Assembly (NCBI GenBank): GCA_015501075.1
Contig: JADNYJ010000103.1
Span: 62,001-126,000 of the forward strand
Length of the DNA stretch: 64,000 nt
Reading direction: 5' to 3'
Origin: Gymnopilus junonius
Taxonomy: Eukaryota > Basidiomycota > Agaricomycetes > Agaricales > Galerinaceae
Shown: positions 16,944 to 64,000 of the stretch, piece by piece
Layout of the letters: each line of letters begins with the position of its first letter
Numbering within the stretch: the first letter of the stretch is position 1
Made by a program: the position numbers and the translations under genes
Notes under the pieces: model-generated
Databases searched by the model: none
Told to the model about the DNA's origin: nothing
What the model saw: the letters and a program-made list of their open reading frames with translations, nothing else

Positions 16944-17632
16944 TCTTAAATATTCATTTATACCCAATGTATTCTTATCATCTATGGTTGTACCTTTGTA
17001 GCCATTATTGTTATCCCTTGTATAATTTTTTGCTTCGGATTAAATGTACCTATAGTATTTCTTGACTTCCCCTTATTCTGGCGACCGCGGTTGCATGTAC
17101 GCAACCCCACTGGTGATCGTCGCCGAGAAGAGAATGATGCTACTTACTATGTATTGGTTGGAAACTATAAATTATTTGTTCTTAGTGCCTTAGTGCCATG
17201 TCCATTTGTTTTTAGAGGCTTTGATATTGAGTTCACGACTTCTACAAACAATAATTTATACAACATAGCAATACTACTGCAATCCTCCAGGTGACAGAGA
17301 CATATAGAATTGGACTCGAGCAAAAATTTGAGTAACCTATATCCCAGATTCTCAGTCATTCAGCTATCAATTCTTGGTGCATGTAAAGTTGAGGATCTAC
17401 CCTTATCACGATTACACTTTGTGCGCGGCTGACTGACGCCTCTTGCCCTTTGACTCAATTGTCGCATTGGCGAACAATCGTGAGCTTTGTCTTGTTTGAT
17501 GATCTTCCACGTCTCCGGCCATTGATCCCGTTCCTGTTTCACACCAGTAGGCCCGGACACCAGTTCAGCAGAGGACCAGAGGGCACCAAAGACGTTGAAT
17601 TTGTGCTCGATTTTTGGCGTCACTTTTTCGCG
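16944..17632. other. Intergenic, AT-rich
   Basis: About 690 bases lie between the convergent 3' ends of the kinase-like gene and DUF4246 copy A. There are only AT-rich stretches and short spurious frames. Nothing here is supported as a gene. Confidence 0.4.
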
Positions 17633-19632
17633 TCAATGCTCGCATAACGAAATGACGTTGTCCGTTTCTAAAGCATCATTCTCCCTAAGAACAAATTCCT
17701 TCCTTTCATCCATCAATTCCAGCCTCAATTCCTCCGCCTCCTTCAAACTGATAGGAAAATTGGCTTGCTCTAGTGTATGACTCTGTGAAAGTTCTTCTAC
17801 GTGGGTGTCTAACTGTTTGATCCACTTTGGTGGGGCTTCTTTCCACTCCTGCCACCAGTCCTGTCGCTGGCAAGGAACATGCGCCGTGCTGATGATTTTG
17901 ATGTTTGGGTCGACGAGGAAGAGAGCAAGCACCTTCCGATGCCCTGGTCGGGTCGGGTCCCGCAGTTTGAATGGTCCTACGCGGTGTTGCAAAATATTCG
18001 GGAAACTGAGCAGGCGCCCTTCGCGTGTTTCGACTCCTCCAACCTCTTGAAGTCCAGGCCCATTTTGTCGAACACCAAAAACCGCAGGCAACCAATCATG
18101 TACGTCCTGTGGGTAGCGGATATTCACTGTATCATCATCGACTAGCTGTCTAAAATAAAGAGCAGATGGAGTGACATTGTGGCAGTCATAATAGTATAGT
18201 GAAGTCGCCACGATATGCTCATTCTATGCCAATGTCAGCGTCGCTGGAAGCAACAGGCGATTCCACATACCATTTGGCCTTCAACATGCCAAGTTCCTCC
18301 ATTGTAGTCAGGTTTATCGGGAGTAAGCTGAATGTTCGCCAGTTTCACAATCACCTGCAATCCCTTTTTCCGATATCCAGCCTTCAGGCTGAATGGAGGC
18401 GGCCTCTTGATTAGCTTGAATTTGCTCGAAGGTTCAGGAAGGACGACATGACGTGGTAACTCTTCCCATGAGAGTTTCTTATCGATATAGTTAAATGCAT
18501 TGCGGCCCCTAGGTTCTGGCGGGTCAAAACTAGAAATATTGTATTTGATTCTCTGCTGGTATTTGAATTTGGGGCTTTTATACGGTGCCAGACTTTTTTC
18601 CCAGAGAGAGATAGAAGCTTTGATCACTTTTTCGATGAGGCTGTAAAGCGGGAGCTCTGTATGGGGGTGAAGGTTGTTGATATAAGACGTTATCCTACGT
18701 GTGCTATTAGCGACCGACGGAAAAAAAATACGGGTAAGCTTACTTTGGATCACGACCTGTAATATCAACTTCGCAGGGCAGCCACTGAAATTTCGCGCTG
18801 TATGCATACATGGAAGGAGCAGCCGATTCTGAGCTTCCTCCTGGATCAACAGTCTGTGGGACCGGTATGATTTCTCCTTGACCACAACGTGGAATACAAT
18901 CTTTCAAATCCGTCATTTCACCATTCGCCAGTATACGCGTGCGCCCATACACTAGTGGAAAGAGGGAAGGGTGAACCAAATCCCAAACCTTTCCGCCTGA
19001 ATTCGGATGCCAGTCTTTCATGTTTTCTGGGATTTTCTCTTCGAACTTCCGGACTGCTTTCTGCAGGTCTGCCTTGAGTTTGGCTGAACCGGAAAACTTG
19101 TCCCATTTAAACACGTCGCCGTTGTATACGAAGACCGGGGGAGGGATAGCTGGAAGATTCGGGACCATGCGGGCTTTGTGTACAAGTTCCTCCATGCACC
19201 AGTTGGCCATCTTCTCAGTAACATCGAGACCGGAATTCAATATCTCCTGCTTCCATCTCATTGCAAACCTCTTCTTCTTTATCTGATACCCTGAGTCAGG
19301 AAAGAGACTGAGATACAGGCAAGAGGTTGAACGTTTACTTTGATGCGCCAGTCTACTTTATCCGTGATTGCGTTCATGACTCGGAGCATGGTGAGTTCAC
19401 GAAGAGTCGTCAAGGGGAGTCTGTAAGTTCATTGTGGGTATGACGTGGCACGGTTGAGTTGAAGCAGGACGTACAAGTGTCGCCAGTCCGAAGAGCGCAG
19501 GACGCTAGGGAATGGGCGCCCCACATAATCGGGGTCTTGTTCATTGGGCTCATATGTCAAAGGCCGTCCAAATCCTGGGAGCAAAGTCTTACTTTGCGCA
19601 AGGTTGGAGAGCACACGGATACTTTTGTGCAT
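17633..19632 (-). CDS. DUF4246 family protein, copy A
   Basis: This is the first of three paralogs in the window, all on the minus strand. Its exons give LLPGFGRPLTYEPNE at the start, TTLRELTMLRVMNAITDK, then WKQEILNSGLDVTEKMANW, the DWHPNSGGKVWDLVHPSLF and AKFQWLPCEVDI blocks, and NIQLTPDKPDYNGGTWHVEG. It continues with NEHIVATSLYYYDC, NILQHRVGPFKL and GHRKVLALFLVDPNI, and ends in LCEH with TGA at 17633. The order is collinear with copies B and C. The conserved HVE, QHR and GHRK positions could be a 2-oxoglutarate/Fe(II) oxygenase-type facial triad plus cosubstrate arginine; that is inference, since DUF4246 has no assigned activity known to me. No frame break was seen in the exons I checked. 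The start at 19632 (MHKSIRV) is tentative. Confidence 0.8.
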
Positions 19633-41866: not shown

Positions 41867-43930
41867 CTAATGTTCACATAAATTAAATGCCCGGCTTTCG
41901 AAGGCTTCGTTTTCCGATTTCACAAATCCTTTCCTCTCTTCAATGAGTTGTAATCTTAATTGCTTAGCCTCCTGGAGACAAATAGGAAAGTTCACGTCCT
42001 CTAAAACTTGATCTTGAAGCTCAGCCGGGAGTCCAGAAAGCCTAGAGTCCCACAGCCCTGGCATAGCGTGGCTCTTAGGTCTGACAATCTCCTGCCACCA
42101 CCATGCTTGTTGTTGGCACGGAACGTTGGCTGTACTGATAACTTTGATATTTGGATCAACGAGGAAAAGCGCCACGATCTTGCGATGGCCAGGTTTTTTA
42201 GGATCTGCAAGCCTGAATGGTCCTACTCGATGCTGTAAAATGTTGGGGAACGTCAGGAGACGCCCCTCACGCGTTTCTACATTTCCTATTTCTTGAACCG
42301 CAGGTCCTTCAGTTGCCATTCCGAATATAGCAGGCAGCCAGTCGTGGACCCATTGCTCGTAAGAAATCTCGTAGCTCCTACCTCCTCTGCATTGATGCCG
42401 AAATGACAGAGTGGAAGTTGTGACATTTTCACATGAATAATAATAAAGCGACGTCGCTACTATATGTTCATTCTGCAATGAACGACAATCATTAGGAAAT
42501 GTCGAACTTAAACGAACTAAACTCACCAACTGGCCTTCAACATGCCAGGTTCCTCCGCCGTACTCGGGTTTTTCGGGTGTCAGTTGGATGTTGGCCAACT
42601 TGACAATGACCTGCAGCCCGCGGGCACCGTATTGGTCTCTCAGGCTAAATGGTAGAGGTCTTCCAACAGGAATGAAGGATTCGGGAGGTTCAGGAAAGAC
42701 AAGACGTCGTGTTTCATCGTACCATTTCTGTCTTTGATCCCAAAATGTGACCTGGTCCTCATAATCTTCCCTTTGAGGCCCTTCTGTTTTTGGCATCCTT
42801 TCAGGAAAGGGGTCATATTTGACCTGTTTGTACTGAAGGCGTCGTGTTGAGTCTTGAGCGAAGTATTCTCTATGCTGCAAAGGGGCAATAGTCCTATCCC
42901 AAAGGGGTATGGAAGCAGAAATCAGCTTCTCAACAAGATTATAAAGGTGCTGCTCCTCCTGTGGATGAAGGTTGTTGATATATGTTTTTATCCTGATAGC
43001 GACTCAATGTACTGTGAATACGAATAAGCATGAACGTACTTTGCTTCTCCTTTGATATCAACTTCACAAGGTAACCACTGAAATTTGGCACTGAATGGAT
43101 GTTCCACGGAGTCAGGGTCGTCGTCGGCGAGCCAGTCTACTTCATCGCCTGCTTCTCTGGACCACTTTTCCTCTGTCTCATCATCTGGTGGAATGGGAGC
43201 AACTTCTCCCTGACCGCAACACTGAATACAGTCTTTAAGAGTCGTCATCTCTCCGTTGGCCAAAACGCGTGTATGCCCGTAAACAAGGGGAAATATGGAA
43301 GGGTGAACTAAGTCCCAAACCTTTCCTTCGGAGCCTGGGTGCCAGTCTTTCATATTTCCAGGGATTTTGGCTTCGAATATTTTCACAGCTTCCTGTAATT
43401 CTTTCTTCAGCTCCCCTGAGACAGCATAATCAGATTTGAAGACATCGCCATTATACACGAAGATGGGAGGAGGCAAAGCAGGAGGCGGTGGAATCAAGCT
43501 TGCGTTGTATTTCAGTTCATTTATGCACCAGTTGATCATCCTTTCTGTGACGTCGCGTCCTGAAGCCAGCGCCTCGTCCTTCCACTTCTGAGCAATCTCA
43601 GGATTGTTGATCTGATTTTTTCTGTGTAAGAATAGATAAAAGATAGAAAAAGATACTTGGATACCTTAATGTACCAATCTGGTTTATCTGTGATACTATT
43701 CATCAACTGGAGCATAGTAAGCTCACGAAGAGTTATCATTGGGAATCTGTTGAGTCATCTAAGTCCGTAGTCGACGTGATCGCATTGTATTCTGAAAGCT
43801 CACGTAGGACCATGTTGCCCAGGTAGTAAGTTCTGCCAGCTTAGCGTGTTCGGAAACAATCTGGCAACGAAGTCTGGATCCCCTTCTGTGGGGCGTGGTT
43901 CAGAGGGCGTCCGAAACCTGGCAACATCAT
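41867..43930 (-). CDS. DUF4246 family protein, copy B
   Basis: This is the second DUF4246 paralog, collinear with copies A and C. Its conserved blocks are MMLPGFGRPLN, FPMITLRELTMLQLMNSITDKPDWYIK, DVTERMINWCINELKYN, DWHPGSEGKVWDLVHPSIF, AKFQWLPCEVDI, GGGTWHVEG, NEHIVATSLYYYSC, NILQHRVGPF, GHRKIVALFLVDPN and the C-terminal LCEH with TAG at 41867. The last large exon is 42474-41867. In the first exon the frame breaks at the G4 run 43890-43893 (plus strand), just after RPLNHAP: the expected GDPDFVARLFP block is in the next frame, so one base appears to be missing. I read this as a consensus error. It is closest to copy C (ALASGRDVTE / ALASGRDITE). Putative triad positions HVE, QHR and GHRK are retained. 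Confidence 0.78.
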
Positions 43931-52252: not shown

Positions 52253-54067
52253 TTGGTTTTTGTCCATCCCATCTTGTGCTTGTATTTATACGGTCTCTCG
52301 CGATTTGCATTTCTAAAAGTACTTTCAAGTGTTGCTTAAACAGAAACATCGACCAGAACAAACTCCCCACTCCCGACAAAATTGCTTTGATTACAATTTT
52401 TCGTGCAAACGTCTTTAGAGGGGATGAACCAAACCACCGATCGACCCATTAAGGAGCTTCTTCTATATAAGGTAACTATTTCCCAAAGTGGATAGATCAT
52501 CAGCCCCTAGGACAAACGCAAACAAAAACTAGTCTTTACAAGTTTACCTGAACGGAAAAAAAATTTAAATAAACAAGGATGGTCACCGTTGTGCTGATAC
52601 TAGAACAGTCCATCATGGCTGAGTTACTCGAAGGCTAGGTGATGATCAACCGGTGGTTGTGCGCATTAACACCCTACGCTATTGATACATGGTAGCGAAT
52701 ATTTTCCTTCCAATAATCGATTACATTCCTGTGCTTCGGCTGAGAGAAATACAAGAGGTGTCAGATCCACCGATCTTGGACGTAGGGTTCCCACGGATGG
52801 GGGGGTATTCCTCAAAGCAGTTGACGGCTTCCTCTCGGCGAACAATGTGGCATGTGACCGGCGTAGCTCAGCATCAACACACCAAACCTTCGTCAACTAA
52901 GGTAGTTCATCCCAAGTTCATCCTGACCTCTTATCACTTTCGACGCAGCGCTCCAGCTTGATGTGTCCTCTGCTCCCGCAATAACCTCAACAGGGTCAAC
53001 TGATGCTGTATATACTGTATCATCTCAGCCTCTCTCTCCTTCTCATGTCAATATATTTTTGTCAAATAATTCAACGAAGGAGAACGTCAGACCAAGCTCA
53101 CTTCAAGTCCTTTGTGAACAATGTTATCCGTGACTTACATGGTGAATCTCCTCGATGACCTCATAGCACACAACCAATACAAAACCCTCCTATGCCCGTT
53201 CCATTTGCCTTGCCCATGGAAGTAGCTTATTGTTCTTATAACCAACCACAAAGGGATGTATTCTACTAACTAATTCCATATCTCTTCCTACTTTATCCAT
53301 TTGAAACCTCATCACTTTGAGCGACACTAGAGTGTGCACTGGTAAGTATGTCCCATGCCGCCACCAGCCGCACTGATTATATCAGCTCCGCCGAGTGTGC
53401 CGAGTGTGAGAAAATGATGAGTTGGCCAGGCACATATTTGGATCTGACGTCCGGGATCACTGGATCTGACGCCTCTTGGAGAAATAGTGCCCCAAGCTTG
53501 AGATCTGCCAATGCCGGTTCTCTGTGTGACCATCCTGGACTCAAACTCTGTGGCTACTTTCACCAGGTTGGAAGAGTTAGGAAACTAGACATTCTGGGCA
53601 CAGTGACGTTGAAAATGAGGAATGAATCATGAATGAATGTTGAGAGTAAATAAGTTTATAAATGGATTTTGTCCTATTTGTTAAAAACAGGCATTGATCC
53701 GACAGCGGCACAAGACCTGGGGTGAGAGTCAAGATGGATCGGGGTAAAGAAAATATTATCCAGATGATCCAGATTACATGCCAGATGAAATTGGGCGTCC
53801 TAACTTTAAAGGCTTTCTTAAGCGGCAACGTCAATCATTGGATAATTAAATAAGTAGAGTGTACATACTATACTTACTTGATGAGCAGTCAATGAGCTTA
53901 AGAGTAACCATGAAACATATACTGCTCGGCCGATCAATATATAGTATCGCTATCAGAGCAACAGTATCGATGAAAATATAGAGTAGTGAACCAAGATGAA
54001 TAATACGTATGTGTGGGACATCTCAAATCCTTTGCAAATTACCCGACTCTCCGAGACGGCGTATTAG
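52253..54067. other. Gene-free stretch, 1.8 kb
   Basis: I find no supported gene here. Small frames on both strands (for example 53348-53632) lack family resemblance. There is a short tandem duplication, GCCGAGTGT, near 53395. It could hold degenerate transposon sequence, but no ends or target-site duplication are visible. Confidence 0.4.
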
Positions 54068-56203
54068 TTAGTGCTCGCACAAGGAGAATGTACTAGCCTC
54101 AAATGCCTGATGACTTTTTACTACAAACTCCTTCCGTTCCTCTATTAAATCCATCCTCAATTTCTTCGCCTCCTGCATATTAATCGGAAAATCAACATCT
54201 TCCAAAACATGATCCTGCAATTCGAGCGGAAGACTAGCAACACCACGACCAGAAGCACGGCTGCCCGCTCCCAAATTTGCATTGGCCTCCAGATGCAGAG
54301 ATTGTGTAACCGCCCACCACCACTCTTGTTGCTGGCACGGAACATGTGCTGTACTGATGACTTTGATATTCGGGTCAACGAGGAATAACGCAATAATTTT
54401 GCGATGCCCGGGCTTGGTAGGATCCTTCAATTTGAACGGGCCGACACGATGCTGCAGGATATTTGGGAAGGTAAGCAGACGGCCTTCGAGAGTCTCGACG
54501 CTCCCGACTTCCTGCACAGCAGGCCCATCCTGCTCGCATCCGAATATTTCAGAGAGGAATTCATGTTCATGTTGCATGTAGGCAATGTGTTCCGATTCCG
54601 ATTGCTCGTCGCATTGCTGCTTGAAAGACAAGATTGAAGCAGTGATGTTTTCGCAGGAGTAGTAGTATAAAGATGTTGCCACGATATGCTCATTCTAAAA
54701 GTTCATCAAAGATTTAAGAGTTTAATGCACAAGTGAAAAATCGAAACGAAGGTTAATTACCATTTGACCTTCAACATGCCAAGACCCTCCATTATATGCC
54801 GGTTTCTCAGACGTCAGCTCAATATTCGCCAACTTGACGATGACCTGCAATCCCCGTTGCCCATATTTGTCCTTCAAACTGAACACTGGAGGTTCATCCA
54901 GCGGTTTAAAAGTTTCTGGCTCAGGACGTAAAACCTTCCGAGTATCCTCGATCCAAGCCTGCCTTCTTTCATAGTAATCATCCTCAGATTCATCAGATCC
55001 TTGCTGAGGACCCTCTTCTGGTGGGAGGTTTCCAGGATCTGGGTCGTACGTAACTTCGTCATAATGTACGCGCGCTGGGTGGCTGTATGACTCCACAGTT
55101 AACGGAGCCAAGGTTACATTCCAGAGCGGGACAGAAGACGAGATGAGTCTTTCAATAAGTCGGTAAAGGGGCTTTTCTTCTCCAGGATGAAGGTTATTGA
55201 TATACGTTGTAATTCTAAACATAATATCAAAATCTGATATGAAGGATGGAACAGAGGTGTAACATACCTTGCTTCGCCAGAAGATATGTCAACTTCACAA
55301 GGTAGCCATTGAAATTTCGCACTGAAAGGTTTCTTCAAGTAGTTCTGCTGCCAGCTATAAAAATGTACAGGTGGTTTCCCAAATTCATGGGTGTCGTCTT
55401 CTCCTGGAATAGGTGCAATTTCACCTTCTCCCGAACGTGTGATACAATCTTCCAGAGTGGTAGCTTCACCATTGGCCAGAACACGCGTCCGACCATAGAT
55501 GAGAGGAAATAAGGAAGGGTGAATCAGGTCCCAGACCTTCTCGTCCGATCCTGGATGCCAGTCCTTTAGTCTTTCAGGAATCTTTGCCTCAAACTCCTTG
55601 ACGGCCTCCTGAAGCTCCTTTTTCAACTCTGGAGGAACAGCAACATCAGATTTGACCACGTCACCATTGTAAACAATGATAGGTGGGTGCTCAGCGGGGT
55701 CTTCAGGGAGCAAGCTTGCTTTGTACTTGAGCTCCTCAATGCACCAGTTAATCATACTTTCGGTGATGTCGCGGCCAGAAGCGAGCGCTTCCTCCTTCCA
55801 CTTCTCCACAATTTCAGGATCGTTTACCTATATTGATGTGCTCAGATTGCAGAACGCAACGCGTAAAAGCGCCTGACGCATACCTTGTGATACCACCCAG
55901 GTTTATCTGTGATACTGTTCATCAATTGCAGCATAGTAAGCTCGCGTAAAGGCACCATAGCAAGTCTGTAGATTGAGCAAAACATATTCAGCCAGCACGC
56001 AAGATTATAGTTCAGACTACGCGGCAGTAAACGTACGTGGTCTTTCCTGATTTCATACCAAACGTGCTTAGCGCGCTCGGAAACAACGGTCGAACGAAAC
56101 CAGGATCGCCTTCTTGGGGCTCGTAGTTTAGTGGGCGCCCAAAGCCTGGTAGTGTCGTCCTGCCCTCACCGGCTGTTGCTGCTGGAGTCTCTTTGGCGGA
56201 CAT
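54068..56203 (-). CDS. DUF4246 family protein, copy C
   Basis: This is the third paralog and the cleanest: no frame break was noticed. It starts MSAKETPAATAGEGRTTLPGFGRPLNYEPQEGD and continues VPLRELTMLQLMNSITDKPGWYHK, ALASGRDITESMINWCIEELKYK, DWHPGSDEKVWDLIHPSLFPLIYGRTRVLANGE, AKFQWLPCEVDI, ITTYINNLHPGEEKPLY, GGSWHVEG, NEHIVATSLYYYSC, NILQHRVGPFKLKDPTKPGHRKIIALFLVDPN, ending LCEH at 54068. It has about 600 residues with no signal peptide or membrane segment, so it is probably cytosolic. The HVE, HR and GHRK positions are shared with the other copies. Its function is unknown; oxygenase-like is my inference from those residues. Confidence 0.82.
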
Positions 56204-57649: not shown

Positions 57650-58911
57650 TCATGTTTCGCTGGAGGCTAACCACCCAGAGAAATAGATGATGAATCCAAT
57701 GCCCACTACAATCCCTGACAGGTCGTCTAAAAATAAGGAGCCCATCTGCATATATTTGAGTCCATTTATGATGAGAGATGGGAATGGTTGAGGGAGGTGT
57801 GGCAGCGCGAGTGCGAGGAGAGTAGGTGGTTGAACGGTATCCTATAACGAAAAAATATAAGTTGACGAAACAGCCAAACTAGGATCCTCAAAACTCACAA
57901 AGCCAGAGAATATGCGCAAAGAATGTAAGATGATCTGTAAAGTGGTAAACGCCCAGAAGAAAGGCTGGAAGGTCATCCATTAACCATTACCGACCGAAAT
58001 TCAAGAGTTGGAAAACCACGTACCACAATCCGAATTTTAAACGTCTGCATAGCATCCAACACCGCAGGATTCCTATGGCCCAACTCTGCCCACCTCCTCC
58101 ATAAACTGACAGCACCCTGACCCTCAGCCACGCCACCCGCCTCACTGAACGCCTTTGGCTCAGCCCACAACACGAAATATGCCAACAAACACCACATTGC
58201 CACGAGGTGCACCAACGGCATAACCTTCTGCAGCCTCGTCTTCTCCTTCGGTGGTTCCATACCCATTCCCGGAGTTGCTGGGAACTTTCCATCCATTCCC
58301 ATCATGCCCATACCCGGTCCACCGAAGGGAGGGAACATCCCCGCACCACCGCCCGCACCAGCCTGGGGTCCACCAAGTAACGCAGCAAGAGGGTTATCCA
58401 TCTGCGAAATGGGGTCCTGCAGTTCGCCGAACGGTGAAGGCTGTGAGGGCGCAGCGGACGCGTTCATAAGCGCCTGCATGAACTGCTGCTGCTGTTCCGG
58501 CAGCCAAACAGATGGATCTGTTGCGTTTCCGGCGAGGCTTTCGAAGATATTGGCGTTTCGTGAAGGCGTGGTGCCTCTTCGCCTTGACGTGGAGGAAGAG
58601 GGTGCTTGCGAACTGGGTTCAGGAGAGGGACTCCTATGCGTTGGCGGTGGCGGCATGTTTGATGTCGCCTCTCCAAGAAAATTGCTCGCTTTTGTTGATG
58701 GCAATTGCGCTAGAGGTGGATCTGTACACAGGATGAGCAACGGCATAAAAAAATTAATCAGACGGATAACGCAATTGGATGACATACCATCATGGTATAG
58801 CGCTGAAGCGTCTTCACCTCGCGCCGACGTCGTCAGTTTCGCAAGTCTATCAGTACCGCGACTGAGAATGGCCTTTCTACGGGCTTCTGCGCGTGCAGCT
58901 GCAGAAGACAT
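57650..58911 (-). CDS. GET2: GET complex subunit Get2 homolog
   Basis: GET2 is the ER receptor subunit that takes tail-anchored proteins from the Get3 ATPase. The N-terminus carries the Get3-binding charged helix, with ARAEARRKAILSRGTDRLAKL in family order, near residues 6-26. A long disordered Ser/Pro/Met/Gly-rich region follows (FPPFGGPGMGMMGMDG). Three hydrophobic segments come at the C-terminal end: LVHLVAMWCLLAYFVLWA, an aromatic-rich one (PFFWAFTTLQIILHSLRI) and SGIVVGIGFIIYFSGWLA, with TGA at 57650. Introns lie near 58722-58785, around 58010 and near 57900. ATG 58911 (MSSAAARAEARRK) is chosen because it puts the RRK motif close to the N-terminus, as in yeast Get2. Confidence 0.8.
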
Positions 58912-59262
58912 TGGGGGCGGATTTTTTGAAAGGGATCCCTGTGGACGTGTGCAGAGCACTTTTTATATGGAGAACACAGTCAGGACGTGGCAAGCCTGTG
59001 TTTCATAAGGTAGAGGAAATCCATACTCATCCAATGTCAGGTGATGTGACCTTCTGTGATGAGGTAGTTAGCAGACGCACGTGCCCTGGCAATATCAAGC
59101 ACGACGCGGTCTACAGATCGCTCGATGTTCGTTCCTCCATTACAATACATTAGGATCGATAGTGTCTAGTATGTACAAGCCTTGATGTAAAATACACTAA
59201 GTGATTTAGTATGACTTGGTATGAATTATACACTGCAAAAAGAAAAAAACCGAAGTTTGGCT

Positions 59263-59415
59263 TCAAATCTTTGCCTTCGAAAGGTCCTCCATCAAAGATT
59301 CAGGTAAAACATGATGGCCACGATATTTTCTCGATGCCCAGGCAGCCTGCTTGCTGTTTAGGCCTTGATAATAAGTGTCCATGAGCTGGCACACTTTTTT
59401 TACGCGTCGACGCAT
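59263..59415 (-). other. Short coding-like fragment, possible transposon remnant
   Basis: A 50-codon frame reads MRRRVKKVCQLMDTYYQGLN, then KQAAWASRKYRGHHVLPES, with TGA at 59263. The KQAAWAxxKYRGHxxLPES pattern is familiar to me from repeated hypothetical proteins in agaric genomes, possibly transposon-associated. It is too short to be a whole gene. Confidence 0.35.
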
Positions 59416-59504
59416 TTACAAAATAAGGTCACGTGTATGCGTCATAGAGTCGTAGTTATCCTCTTTAATAAGATGCCAATTCTTACGAGCACAAATGAGC
59501 AAAA

Positions 59505-59557
59505 GTGAAACCGCCAAAATTTCAGAATCCCCATTTAAAAATTATTGGCGGTTCTAC
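59505..59557. repeat. Inverted repeat, about 18-bp arms
   Basis: The arms GTGAAACCGCCAAAATTT and, on the other strand, GTAGAACCGCCAATAATTT flank a short AT-rich centre. It could be a small foldback/MITE-like remnant or a cruciform site. Confidence 0.45.
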
Positions 59558-59737
59558 TTTCTCTAAGGTGGATCTCTAATAATTGTCATGTTGATTTAAG
59601 TGGTTTTGTCACTCTTCATCACGCTTGATCACCTGACATTGGATGAGTACTTATGGATTTCCTCTACCTTAACCGGTGTTTGGCTCACTACATCGGAACA
59701 AATACGCTGGTCAGGTCTCCCTCTTTGAATTTCCACC

Positions 59738-59905
59738 ATGGTTCAACGCTTTCCCCTCAGAAGGTTAATAGCCGAAGGTCGAGATCCTTCTACTGCTGTA
59801 GCTAAAATGCGTCGACATATATTCTCAGCACACTTTGGTAAGTCGCCAAAGAAATCTAATGCCAAGTTCAAGTTGGACGTTGGACCACTCCTGAGGACCA
59901 CTTGA
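59738..59905 (+). other. Small open frame in a strong start context, unassigned
   Basis: The ATG at 59738 lies in CCACCATGG context and opens a basic peptide beginning MVQRFPLRRLIAEGRD and running about 55 codons; a GTAAGT donor-like site sits at about 59839. I recognise no family. It may be chance. Confidence 0.2.
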
Positions 59906-60266
59906 TATTTCACCTTTAAATCGCAAGCTTAAGCGTATATCATACTTTACATCGTCCTATTATAGGCCAATACGTTTGGAATTTGAGTTGGATTACTCGA
60001 AGGTTATCATGATTAGGGCAAGTAGGGCAATGTTGGACATCTGACCATTCGCTATAGTGCTATATAAGCCAGAAACAATCGAGAACAAAAGGAGTATAAA
60101 CACTTAGGTAGGTAAGTGAACTTATCAAAAAAACCATTAGTCGATCTAACTACTACAGGTTAAAGTCTCCGATAAAAAAACGAACATCCCACAGTTGAAC
60201 GGTGAGGCTAGAACCCCAAAATTTCCGTAGGAAGACGTTGTACTACATAACAAGGGCTTCACTGTA

Positions 60267-60348
60267 GGCGCTACCAGGGATCGAACCTGGGTTTCGAGAA
60301 ATCAAGGCAAGTCAGAATCTCGAGTGATAACCACTACACTATAGCGCC
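60267..60348 (-). tRNA. tRNA-Gln (anticodon CTG) with an intron
   Basis: The minus strand folds as a tRNA: acceptor GGCGCTA pairs with TAGCGCC, the D arm GTGTAGTGGTTATCAC follows, then anticodon stem CGAGA/TCTCG and T arm CCAGG-TTCGATC-CCTGG. The anticodon loop, read TT-CTG-A, is extended by about 11 nt, consistent with an intron just 3' of position 37. CTG decodes CAG glutamine. Box A and box B promoter elements (TAGTGTAGTGG and GGTTCGATCCC) are intact. CCA is not encoded, as usual for eukaryotes. Confidence 0.88.
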
Positions 60349-60442
60349 TTCAGGCAGACACCTTCAAAGATCCTTCAGAAGAAATATCAATATAGTTTTT
60401 CACTTTTTTGCTCGGGCATTGTAAATTAATGGAATTTATTTC

Positions 60443-60470
60443 CTGCTAACCATTACACTAATCCCGTCGG
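60443..60470 (-). pseudogene. tRNA 5' fragment
   Basis: About 95 bp upstream (in transcription sense) of the tRNA-Gln, the minus strand reads CGACGGGATTAGTGTAATGG and then TTAGCA, a typical acceptor-plus-D-arm 5' half with an A box. No anticodon or T arm follows, so this is a truncated tRNA relic. Confidence 0.5.
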
Positions 60471-60730
60471 TAAGCAATTGCTAATAATAAGGCAGAAGTC
60501 GAAGGCGAAGCTGATAAAGTAATGTGCGAAAGTCAATAATAACCTGGCGCGCAAGTGGTAATCGTGTCTTTAAAAAAATGCGGATAGTAACAATGCAGTG
60601 CGTGATGTATGTATCATTTGTGCGTGAGGTGATAAACTGTCTGCGCTAAAAATCAGCGCGGAATATGCGGGTAAGAAATCGGCTTACTATGATGGTTGCA
60701 TAATTGGTTAAAGGGGAGTTGTGAATATGG

Positions 60731-60847
60731 TCAAGCAACGACGCAGTATGCATTCCCGCCAGAGCCTCCAGTCTCCTCGTTAGTAGGGACCGATGCATCC
60801 TCGGCTTGAGTGGTGAAGAAGGACGCAATGTTGAAAAAGGAGTCCAT
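60731..60847 (-). CDS. CaaX lipopeptide mating pheromone precursor 1 (CVVA)
   Basis: This is a single small exon of 38 codons starting MDSFFNIASFFTTQ and ending EETGGSGGNAYCVVA with TGA at 60731. It has the features of a basidiomycete a-factor-like pheromone precursor: MDxF start, length 35-60, acidic middle (QAEDAS, NEE), a Gly-rich region before the last cysteine, and a C-terminal CaaX box (Cys-Val-Val-Ala) for farnesylation, proteolysis and carboxymethylation. The mature peptide is probably released near the NEE site by N-terminal processing; this is inferred. A TATA-like element lies 103-112 bp upstream of the ATG. The peptide would bind a STE3-type receptor and act in mating and nuclear compatibility. 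The receptor is not visible in the window. Confidence 0.88.
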   Translation of the reverse strand: MDSFFNIASFFTTQAEDASVPTNEETGGSGGNAYCVVA

Positions 60848-60949
60848 TATAGTGTGCGAGGATTGAACTTTTGGTAGGCAAAGGAGGCTCTGGATGGTGC
60901 TGAACTTAAATGCGCGGACGAGCTTGGAGAGAAGCATAAAAGATGAAGT

Positions 60950-60959
60950 CTCCTTTATA
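60950..60959 (-). promoter_or_regulatory. TATA-type element of pheromone gene 1
   Basis: The coding strand reads TATAAAGGAG, with its first base 112 bp before the ATG. The same 10-mer occurs upstream of pheromone gene 2, which supports a shared promoter core. Confidence 0.55.
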
Positions 60960-61540
60960 TTCTACGGATAGAGGTCAGCTATCAATTCAAACCCGCTCTG
61001 AGTGACCGGTCATGGTGCAACACAGATAACAAATCTCAGTCAGAGGCATAATTTTAACTTTGAATTCAACGCGTGTCATTGAGCTGCGCTTAGTCTTATT
61101 GTCTTTCCGGTCATCTAATAGGAACGGAACTCACGACAGGCGAGTCAGAATCCTGGGATAGCCAATGGTCCGTCATGAAAGCTTGTGCAAGCAAACAAAA
61201 ATGACAACAATAGTGAGCTTTTTAACCTATAAGGAGCGGGACAGGTGAGTTTAGTTGTGAATACAAGATAACAATAAAGCCGTTCACTTTCATCTCCGAG
61301 TCGGCTAAAGATGCTGCCAATTTTCAGAGCTCTTGGATCATAGTTTTCAAGAAAATTTAGCAGCAAGTGCGGAGCATTTTGACTGGGAAGTTTATATATC
61401 CAATTTTACGACCACCAACCAGCTCTTGAGATTATATGAACGCGTCTTGTTGTGCGTTATCGCCGGTCGGAACACCGCCGCCGCCACCTTGCAAGCTAAA
61501 TTTGGATTGATCTGAATCCAAAAATAGTAGGTAGTCGTGA

Positions 61541-61600
61541 GCGCCAATCTTGGAGCCGAACCCCGTTCTCAGACGCTCCCACCAATTGCAAAAAGGAAAG
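61541..61600 (-). repeat. tRNA-like / possible SINE remnant
   Basis: The minus strand contains TTGGTGGGAGCGTCTGAG and then GGGGTTCGGCTCC, which resemble a D-arm end and a box B (GGTTCGxxTCC). The arms do not form a full tRNA cloverleaf, so a tRNA-derived SINE head or tRNA relic is possible. Confidence 0.25.
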
Positions 61601-62015
61601 AGGAACCTGAAATAAACGATCGCGCAGTTGATTAAATATTTTAGGACATTTTTCTTCTTCTTCTGATAATAAGACGCTATATTATAGTTGAACTACTCAG
61701 GGTCCAACGGCAACTTCTGTTTTCCTATTTTTGTCAGGTCGGACCTTAATCCATCCTCTTCATTTCATGCGCCACACAACAATTAGGGACAAGAGTTGCC
61801 GTGATGTTATTGCAGAATAAGACGGACTTACAATTACTACTCTGGGGCTGGGAGCCTAACCTTGATTCTTGAATAATGCCTAGAGAAGTTTGTGCAGCGT
61901 CATGTACGTTAGGTAGTACTTACACTGCCTGTCTCTGTATGGGTAGACAATAAACCGACTCTATGGGGCCTTATAATAGATAGTGTAAGTACTCCTGCAT
62001 TTGTCTCGACTTGGA

Positions 62016-62051
62016 CACGGTCATCCACGAGCGGTCGGCCTCGTGGCCGTG
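62016..62051. repeat. Long perfect-stem hairpin with bulge
   Basis: CACGG and CCACGAG on the left pair with CTCGTGG and CCGTG on the right, giving 12 base pairs with a 4-nt bulge and an 8-nt loop. It lies between the two pheromone genes. Its role is unknown. Confidence 0.45.
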
Positions 62052-62811
62052 CCATTTCAACGAGTGCATCACAATGTACCGATAGACTATGTACATCCGT
62101 GCAAAGCTCACTCAGTCAGATTCTACCACTCTTACTTTCATAGCGTGAGGTAATGCCATTATCATAAGATCAGGGCGCAGTCTGTGCGATGTCAGCTTTA
62201 TAAAAAAATTGTTCGCTGGAGGAGTCGACTCTTCCTCGTATGCCAAGCATCCATAATTTATTCATTAGAGCGAGCAAAGTCCAATGTCAGACTCCCGAGT
62301 CACTTTATTTTACCAATCATGCCGACTTGATACTACTCTAGGTGCAAATGACAATAGAAGACTAATATGTTCGTTATCAATAACAATAAGACTGTTCAAC
62401 TCACGACCTATATAGCGATATTGACGAAAGACGAAATGGCTATATTACTCCTCTGAGTACCCGCTAGAAAAGCTATGCGCGAGCAAAACGTTCAGAACTC
62501 GGAAAGGAAATAAAAGATTGAAATGCGAATGAGGGTGCCGAATGAGAGAAATATGGGTATGAATGCGATGGGGTAACCGATGGAGTGTTCAAGTAACGAT
62601 ACAATGCTTTGGTGGTGTTGCAGGAAGGAATGCAGATGTGTTGTGGTGGAGTGGTATACAGAGATGCGATATGACGTTGATGAGGTTGTAATGATCTGTT
62701 AAGCGGAGGTTAATTTAGCATCCGAATCTAAAAACACGGTCTTGAAGAAAATGAAACATACAAATGATAATAAATAATGAAGGAAAGTGAAATAATGCAA
62801 AGCCTGGATTT

Positions 62812-62925
62812 TCAGGCAATGATGCAGTAGCAGTTTCCGCCAGATCCCCCTTTTTCTTCGTCGTTTAGGACATCGGGGATAGAGTCGATGGTAGTGATAG
62901 TAACGGTGTTAGAGAAGCAGTCCAT
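62812..62925 (-). CDS. CaaX lipopeptide mating pheromone precursor 2 (CIIA)
   Basis: This is a single-exon gene of 37 codons starting MDCFSNTVTITTIDS and ending DEEKGGSGGNCYCIIA with TGA at 62812. It shows the same plan as precursor 1: MDxF start, acidic middle (NDEE), then GGSGGN-x-YC and a CaaX box (Cys-Ile-Ile-Ala). The two differ almost completely in the N-terminal leader but agree in the segment that would become the mature lipopeptide, so they are paralogous or convergent ligands, probably for the same or similar receptor. An extra cysteine two residues before the CaaX cysteine is unusual. A TATA-like element is found 91-100 bp upstream of the ATG. It is below the length at which most gene finders call genes. 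Confidence 0.88.
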   Translation of the reverse strand: MDCFSNTVTITTIDSIPDVLNDEEKGGSGGNCYCIIA

Positions 62926-63015
62926 AATATTGCAGTTGAATTGCTTTGGACCGAACCGTCGAACGGTGCACAGGTTAGGGAACGAAGGAACCTTGGGGAC
63001 GATTTACAAAATTTC

Positions 63016-63025
63016 CTCCTTTATA
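63016..63025 (-). promoter_or_regulatory. TATA-type element of pheromone gene 2
   Basis: The coding strand reads TATAAAGGAG, with its first base 100 bp before the ATG; it is identical to the element before pheromone gene 1. Confidence 0.55.
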
Positions 63026-64000
63026 GTAAGTACCCTGAAGAGCATGTGTCGCCGCGAAGTCCGAGAGATTGGTCTCTATTGTGTAGCGTGTTCGTGTAAG
63101 GGACGATGTGCTGTTGAGCATGTCGCCAGCGAGAGCAAGAACAATTGTAGGTGCCGTATGCGCCGTCGTAAAAAGACAATACGCGACTACCGTATCTGAT
63201 TTATAATTGGACGTTCGCATTTTGTTTTGCCCATGACAATCTCCCGAGCTCGGCACGAATCCGTTCCCCGAATGGCTGCATTATCCCGGATTAGCATTGG
63301 TCGAAAGTTATCTGTTGCAAATCAGTCAGTAAGCCACCCTAGATCGAACCTTCATATAGCCCGTGTACTTACTGTCAAAGGGGAATAAATGGGCTGAAAT
63401 ATAGTACATTCCACCTGAGACTTTGGCGCTTTAGATCCAGTGGGTGAGCGTGACAATGTTTTGCTCACCCGACTCGGAGAATAAAAATAAGTACCTGGGA
63501 ATGACGTCGGAATGTAGTTAAGCGTATGGCAGGTTTTTTGTCGTTTTATTGGAGAAATCCCATATGTGGATTTGTCCAGGGTCAATTGATGCATATAGCT
63601 CCTTCAGAGACCAAATGCACACCAAGTGAGACGGTGTTGATGAGGCTCGAGCAGAACAATAAGGATGCAAAAAGTTTTCGAATAGTTCAAGGAATAGCGC
63701 AGCCATCCAAGTCTGATTCTCAGTCGACAGCACCGAGCAAAACGGCAAGACAGTTACAAGTTGTTCACAAGAACATGCGATCCCTAAGCTCACGTCGAAA
63801 TCCGAAAGGGCAGATTAAAGGTCATAGTAAATAGCAAAACCGGATGAGGTTCGAAAGCGTTTGAGTTGGACGCAAGTTGGACGTGTGAAACTGAAGGACC
63901 AGGTCAACCGGTAACTTGTCTCAACCCGCGGTCGGTGCGAAAAGCGGATGCCAGGGTCCGACACGACTCAGAGCTTGCTCAGAGCTGCTTCTTTCTCAGC
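63026..64000. other. Gene-free window end
   Basis: I find no supported gene in the last 970 bases. A frame at 63526-63834 (+) has no recognisable family. A perfect 8-bp hairpin (GGGTGAGC / GCTCACCC) lies at 63442-63470. If a pheromone receptor gene is linked, it should lie beyond this end. Confidence 0.4.

Follow-up and report, generated by a model that had tools for sequence, protein, structure and literature searches.

Two short CaaX precursor genes of Gymnopilus junonius probably belong to a dispersed family of non-mating-type pheromone-like peptides

Taken as a whole, our observations on a 64,000-nucleotide stretch of the Gymnopilus junonius genome are best explained if two short genes within it, here called gene 1 and gene 2, belong to a dispersed gene family that encodes non-mating-type, pheromone-like lipopeptide precursors, and we hold this reading to be very probable. 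The whole stretch, hereafter the window, comprises bases 62001 to 126000 of contig C6 (143,774 bp), in an assembly of 58.0 Mb and 898 contigs. A sequence-only reading of the window had pointed to two minus-strand frames of 37 to 38 codons, and the frame list confirmed both exactly where they had been placed: gene 1 at 60731 to 60847 (38 amino acids plus stop; protein MDSFFNIASFFTTQAEDASVPTNEETGGSGGNAYCVVA) and gene 2 at 62812 to 62925 (37 amino acids plus stop; protein MDCFSNTVTITTIDSIPDVLNDEEKGGSGGNCYCIIA).

The two translations also bore out the described MDxF start (MDCF in gene 2, a start of the MDS/AF type in both) and the C-terminal CaaX box, i.e., CVVA in gene 1 (60734 to 60745, minus strand) and CIIA in gene 2 (62815 to 62826, minus strand), the precursors ending in GGSGGNAYCVVA and GGSGGNCYCIIA, respectively. 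Charged cut-site motifs, NEET in gene 1 and DEEK in gene 2, lie 13 to 14 residues from the C terminus, compared with about 10 to 15 in the pheromone-like class discussed below, and both contain EE, which is among the cut-site motifs given in PMC8305134. Based on alignment and the rule given in the available parts of PMC8305134, cleavage after the NEET stretch would release the predicted mature peptide GGSGGNAYC (60743 to 60769, minus strand) from the first precursor, and from the alignment cleavage after DEEK would release GGSGGNCYC (62824 to 62850, minus strand) from the second. A pattern of MDxF, 15 to 75 residues and C[AVILMTS][AVILMTS]x-stop matched genes 1 and 2 and no other frame, in the window and along the whole 143.8-kb contig. 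By chance, the pattern occurred in a single frame in 120 sequences of 64 kb (order-2 Markov sequences modelled on the window). A looser CaaX scan, without the MDxF requirement, gave three extra window frames, from which the other marks are missing. A longer version of gene 1, a 68-amino-acid protein starting from an upstream ATG, was rejected because the upstream frame is broken by a 1-base indel on contig C282, the second copy of this region, and the 38-amino-acid start is therefore the conserved one. Both tiny genes look real, and probably encode lipid-modified signalling peptides.

Results with the Pfam family PF08015 (Pheromone) speak against our reading, with gene 1 scoring 16.7 bits, below the curated 22-bit cut-off, and gene 2 remaining unmatched. 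A genome search with PF08015 gave 5 matches and recovered none of the eight dispersed precursor genes described below. Weak PF08015 matches below the cut-off on C74 and C52 were dropped, as these loci had no CaaX frame.

Protein searches placed the precursors among relatives from many mushrooms. Searching with a profile of six family members yielded 62 proteins with E values up to 1 (P0001 to P0062), with Hebeloma cylindrosporum, Psilocybe cyanescens, and Crassisporium funariophilum as the named organisms and the others being mostly metagenome proteins. A wider profile (7,973 candidates scored) found 133 relatives, and among the best 120 of these the named ones came from Agaricus, Serpula, Coprinopsis, Laccaria, Pleurotus, Pisolithus, Pholiota, Dendrothele, and others. 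The names include "pheromone-like peptide" (Agaricus bisporus), "fungal mating type pheromone-like peptide" (Serpula), and "fungal mating-type pheromone" (Coprinopsis). This distribution, from Hebeloma, Psilocybe, and Crassisporium to Agaricus, Coprinopsis, and Laccaria, supports the earlier view that the genes encode precursors of the lipopeptide-pheromone type. The further suggestion that genes of this size had gone unannotated fits the searches, since neither precursor was among the 62 related proteins and no window-encoded protein was among the best 120 of the 133, but it is unproved, because these searches were size-limited and a much longer, mis-modelled protein would fall outside the limits. 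We also considered whether the CaaX peptides of genes 1 and 2 could act inside the cell or serve some other purpose unrelated to pheromones, given that the function of the class is unproven. This appears very unlikely, as an MDxF start, a charged cut site, a Gly-rich end, and a CaaX box are in keeping with the lipopeptide pheromone pathway, and the names of several database relatives include pheromone or pheromone-like.

Within the lipopeptide pheromones, the two genes appear from their sequences to belong to a class already known from other mushrooms. The available parts of PMC8305134 describe a class of non-mating-type pheromone-like peptides in Agaricus, with a consensus for Coprinopsis and Laccaria, the class consensus sequences being GGGSGNGAYC and GGGSGNNAYC. 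The genes of G. junonius share with this class the MDS/AF-type start, the charged cut site, the CaaX box, the Gly-rich tail with YC, the presence of several copies outside the mating-type locus, a mature peptide that is alike between strains, and a 3' untranslated region intron, which is predicted here from sequence alone in four of the eight genes. The mature ends GGSGGNAYC and GGSGGNCYC, compared by eye, are similar but not identical to the GGGSGNxAYC form, the core here being GGSGGN(A/C)YC and in the published class GGGSGN(G/N)AYC, and neither of the two sequences was found in the open-access literature. Two further features set the present family apart from the published class, namely, a shared upstream TTATTGT element and one member with a two-unit precursor. 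In other mushrooms, receptor-unlinked pheromones were expected in Flammulina (PMC3140503, in part), and four Pycnoporus precursors resemble the class (PMC4101180, in part). The available portions of PMC8305134 and PMC13308352 list the roles of non-mating STE3 receptors and of dispersed pheromone-like peptides as open questions.

The sequence-only reading had instead placed the two genes at the edge of a B mating-type locus, as mating pheromones of a pheromone/receptor (P/R) locus. The precursor architecture is correct for this, the genes lie 2 kb apart on the same strand, and their surroundings are indeed locally gene-poor, with no closed stop-to-stop frame of at least 170 amino acids in 59,009 to 64,000. 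However, a profile search of the assembly for STE3 (PF02076) gave at least 35 matches, a lower bound with 28 candidates scored, which were distributed over C712, C314, C590, and C850; none was on C6, and none was on any other contig carrying the family. Within the limits of the assembly, genes 1 and 2 are thus not linked to STE3, with C6 extending 122 kb on one side of the gene pair and ending 18.8 kb past gene 2 on the other. The assembly would permit the right end of C6 to abut C314 or C850, given that STE3 lies near a contig end on C314 (30.9 kb) and on the C850 fragment. C314 aligns with the interior of C712, and C850 is taken to be a second copy of the C590 receptor. Were the right end of C6 to abut C712 or C590, contig coordinates would put at least about 89 kb between the gene pair and the closest receptor.

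The receptor cluster itself, on C712 and C314, has pheromone genes of its own. Four B-locus pheromone frames were found in the fetched stretch of C712 and two in that of C314, with ends (...TYGFCVVA, ...TYGFCAIA, ...PSWFCIII, ...PSWFCMIA, ...PSWFCIVA, and ...GGYCTIA) whose mature parts are unlike those of the window. These genes resemble the dispersed ones in the general precursor plan, and differ from them in their mature ends, in lying beside STE3 and in having surroundings that are diverged between both contigs. Between C712 and C314, the aligned stretches of the cluster are 69%, 83%, and 93% identical and the remainder is unalignable, whereas the window region is 98.5 to 99.6% identical between C6 (104126 to 138867) and C282 and thus lacks the strongly diverged alleles of a B locus. 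On the content of C6, the C6/C282 identity, and the separate receptor cluster, we rejected the placement of genes 1 and 2 at a B locus, and consider it highly improbable. A STE3 receptor outside the main cluster was observed at C590:119935-121044. A pheromone gene adjoining it was rejected, as a scan of C590:116300-124000, about 3 kb on either side, found no CaaX frame, making this receptor a candidate orphan.

On C282, the second copy of gene 1 (17250 to 17363) has a single synonymous difference and that of gene 2 (19330 to 19440) has none, so that both peptides, including their mature parts, are the same on the two contigs. We infer that C282 represents the other haplotype, with an assembly duplicate as the alternative, and for this one contig pair the mature peptides would then be identical between haplotypes. 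Since C6 and C282 specify identical products for both genes, these peptides cannot discriminate partner from self.

Protein searches of the assembly, a pattern search, and direct reading together showed that the family has eight or more loci: the two on C6, and those at C897, C57/C614, C423/C36, C79:303.7k, C734, and C47/C79:375k. Copies on two contigs were seen for five of the eight, namely both window genes, C57/C614, C423/C36, and C47/C79:375k, and the remaining three (C897, C79:303.7k, and C734) were each seen on a single contig. The family pattern search gave 14 matches, compared to 5 for the reversed control, and 12 of the 14 were inside family genes, the other two being at C79:273131 and C445:708638. 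The C47 member is a weak relative, with a best E value of 0.007 to another locus. The mature peptide GGSGGNAYC is encoded by four of the at least eight genes, on four unlinked contigs or contig pairs, which also argues against a B-locus origin. Genes 1 and 2 were rejected as a recent tandem copy, since the sole match between their surroundings (E < 0.5) is the coding tail (51 bp, 76% identity), so that any such duplication would not be recent. Near-identity between contigs is not a rule of the family; the C423/C36 pair is only 93.3% identical in DNA, as diverged as the most conserved receptor stretch, and its propeptides differ at two amino acids while the predicted mature peptides are the same.

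For all pairs of nine tails from the eight genes, the pooled pN/pS of the final 12 codons is 0.27, a descriptive value because the tail pairs are non-independent, and gene 1 and its C57 relative differ by seven synonymous and no non-synonymous changes. These substitution patterns point to purifying selection acting on the mature end. They bear on the possibility that genes 1 and 2 are functionless relics, derived by dispersal from an ancestral pheromone gene and perhaps still translated, which we regard as very unlikely. The available parts of PMC8305134 allow that non-mating receptors may be degenerating or may retain some function, and genes 1 and 2 are known here from sequence alone; however, the changes in the mature tail are mostly synonymous, TATA boxes are retained, and TTATTGT occurs upstream of seven of the eight genes, although the surroundings of genes 1 and 2 match each other (E < 0.5) in the coding tail alone; the peptides are also the same on both contigs.

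The precursor encoded by the member at C79:303.7k (L018) comprises two pheromone units (...CVVSR...CVVA). A regular expression also matched two units in 28 of the 62 database relatives, P0062 among them being irregular, and in 27 of these 28 the first CVVA/CVVS is followed by H, R, Q, or K. Multi-unit CaaX precursors are described in the available parts of PMC3068285 for rhodotorucine A and the h-type HPP1 of Trichoderma, and these resemble the C79 member and the 28 relatives in having repeated units of which the last forms the CaaX end. Unlike them, each window gene has one unit, and the h-type is defined by three copies. For Agaricomycetes, no case of a multi-unit precursor was found in those parts of the open literature that were accessible.

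An exact TATA box lies 87 to 136 bp before the ATG in seven of the eight family genes (a raw count; C734 being without one), including genes 1 (60954 to 60959, minus strand, 112 bp before the ATG) and 2 (63020 to 63025, minus strand, 100 bp before the ATG). An open search for 6-, 7-, and 8-mers in the eight upstream regions, of which that of C47 was only 337 bp long, yielded ACAATAA/TTATTGT, present within 600 bp in seven of the eight (binomial 5e-7 before correction for 3,314 7-mers); across 150 shuffles, no 7-mer occurred in more than six genes. Tested on the same eight sequences that yielded it, TTATTGT had 14 sites. Sets of eight AT-matched C6 windows, drawn 20,000 times, averaged 0.88 sites and had at most 7, and 5,000 dinucleotide shuffles averaged 0.76 and had at most 5. 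Gene 1 has two motif-search sites, at 61096 to 61102 (plus strand, reading ACAATAA on the coding strand, offset -255) and 61271 to 61277 (minus strand, offset -430). No exact TTATTGT lies within 600 bp upstream of gene 2, which has a partial match, TATTGTCTTT, at 63172 to 63181 (minus strand, offset -256). The enrichment is not sharply confined, as the further 600 bp upstream held five sites in seven genes, three of them at C897, nor is the element exclusive to the dispersed family, as three of the six B-locus pheromone genes also carry one upstream TTATTGT. The element was present in one of 10 sequences upstream of receptor copies, each covering the 700 bp ahead of the first match to the STE3 profile rather than of a proven start codon, and nine of the 10 coming from the two copies of one cluster. 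In other fungi, pheromone genes are driven by HMG-box factors, for which ACAAT cores are typical. The pheromone-response element of smuts has the motif ACAAAGGGA, which was rejected as the shared element, with no site in 12 upstream stretches. In the open-access literature, ACAATA was not found among the matches listed.

Downstream, an intron-like sequence begins 44 to 64 nucleotides after the stop codon in four of the eight genes, including a putative one for gene 1 at 60646 to 60687 (minus strand). Shuffled sequences gave a mean of 0.11 genes and none of 2,000 reached four, in a test that is post hoc, as the pattern was written after GT...AG stretches had been noticed. Gene 2, C897, C423, and C47 (135 bp searched) had no match to the pattern. 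A 3' intron is a reported feature of Agaricus pheromone-like transcripts in the available parts of PMC8305134.

The gene-poor stretch around the precursor genes contains one tRNA-Arg. Its description as repeat-marked was weakly true, owing to one MITE-like insertion; tandem repeats were absent from 52 to 64 kb. This insertion (59006 to 59671, about 660 bp) is present on C6 but not on C282, lies about 1 kb from gene 1, has inverted ends with perfect arms of 22 and 20 nucleotides, and has partial relatives on C57, C323, C426, and C556. A 729-bp stretch (52751 to 53479) is also missing from C282 and has five near-identical copies (96 to 99%) on other contigs, suggesting that it is probably a recently active repeat. 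The alignment of C282 and C6 further showed two direct copies of 1.26 kb, about 85% identical, just beyond the pheromone genes (C6:125992-127248, which begins in the last bases of the window, and C6:127563-128823). Among the neighboring genes, two DUF4246 genes (54071 to 55827 and 41870 to 43003) were Pfam-confirmed, and a third (about 17633 to 19357, minus strand) was judged by eye from similar translated frames. By database names, the frame at 57976 to 58911 (minus strand) is homologous to Get2, a subunit of the GET complex, with its best named match in Galerina marginata (58%), and a Pfam scan of the unspliced frame gave no families.

Under our preferred reading of genes 1 and 2 as dispersed, non-mating-type precursors, each gene would be transcribed from its own TATA promoter, with the shared TTATTGT (ACAATAA) probably bringing most family members under a common regulator, for which an HMG-box factor is plausible. 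Once farnesylated at the CaaX cysteine, the precursor would lose its last three residues, be carboxymethylated, and be cleaved behind the charged NEET/DEEK residues. The product would be a short, Gly-rich lipopeptide, GGSGGN(A/C)Y-Cys(farnesyl). Its likeliest role would be a species- or self-level signal acting via non-mating STE3 receptors, and a mating-type-blind self signal is the role that we favor by inference. A bolder and rather doubtful extension, offered tentatively, is that the dispersed genes form one co-regulated ACAATAA lipopeptide regulon, providing a mating-type-blind dikaryon signal to non-mating STE3 receptors, partly through two-unit precursors yielding two lipopeptides each.

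The less expected parts of the finding are the shared TTATTGT element and the two-unit precursors. How such pheromone genes can be mis-modelled is illustrated by the G. junonius record CPB84DRAFT_1850217 (P0220), a 112-amino-acid hypothetical protein ending in a pheromone, whose last 59 residues are identical on C897. A CaaX precursor by itself is no marker of a mating-type locus, and at least eight genes with a common promoter element offer a few synthetic peptides and one cis-element for testing.
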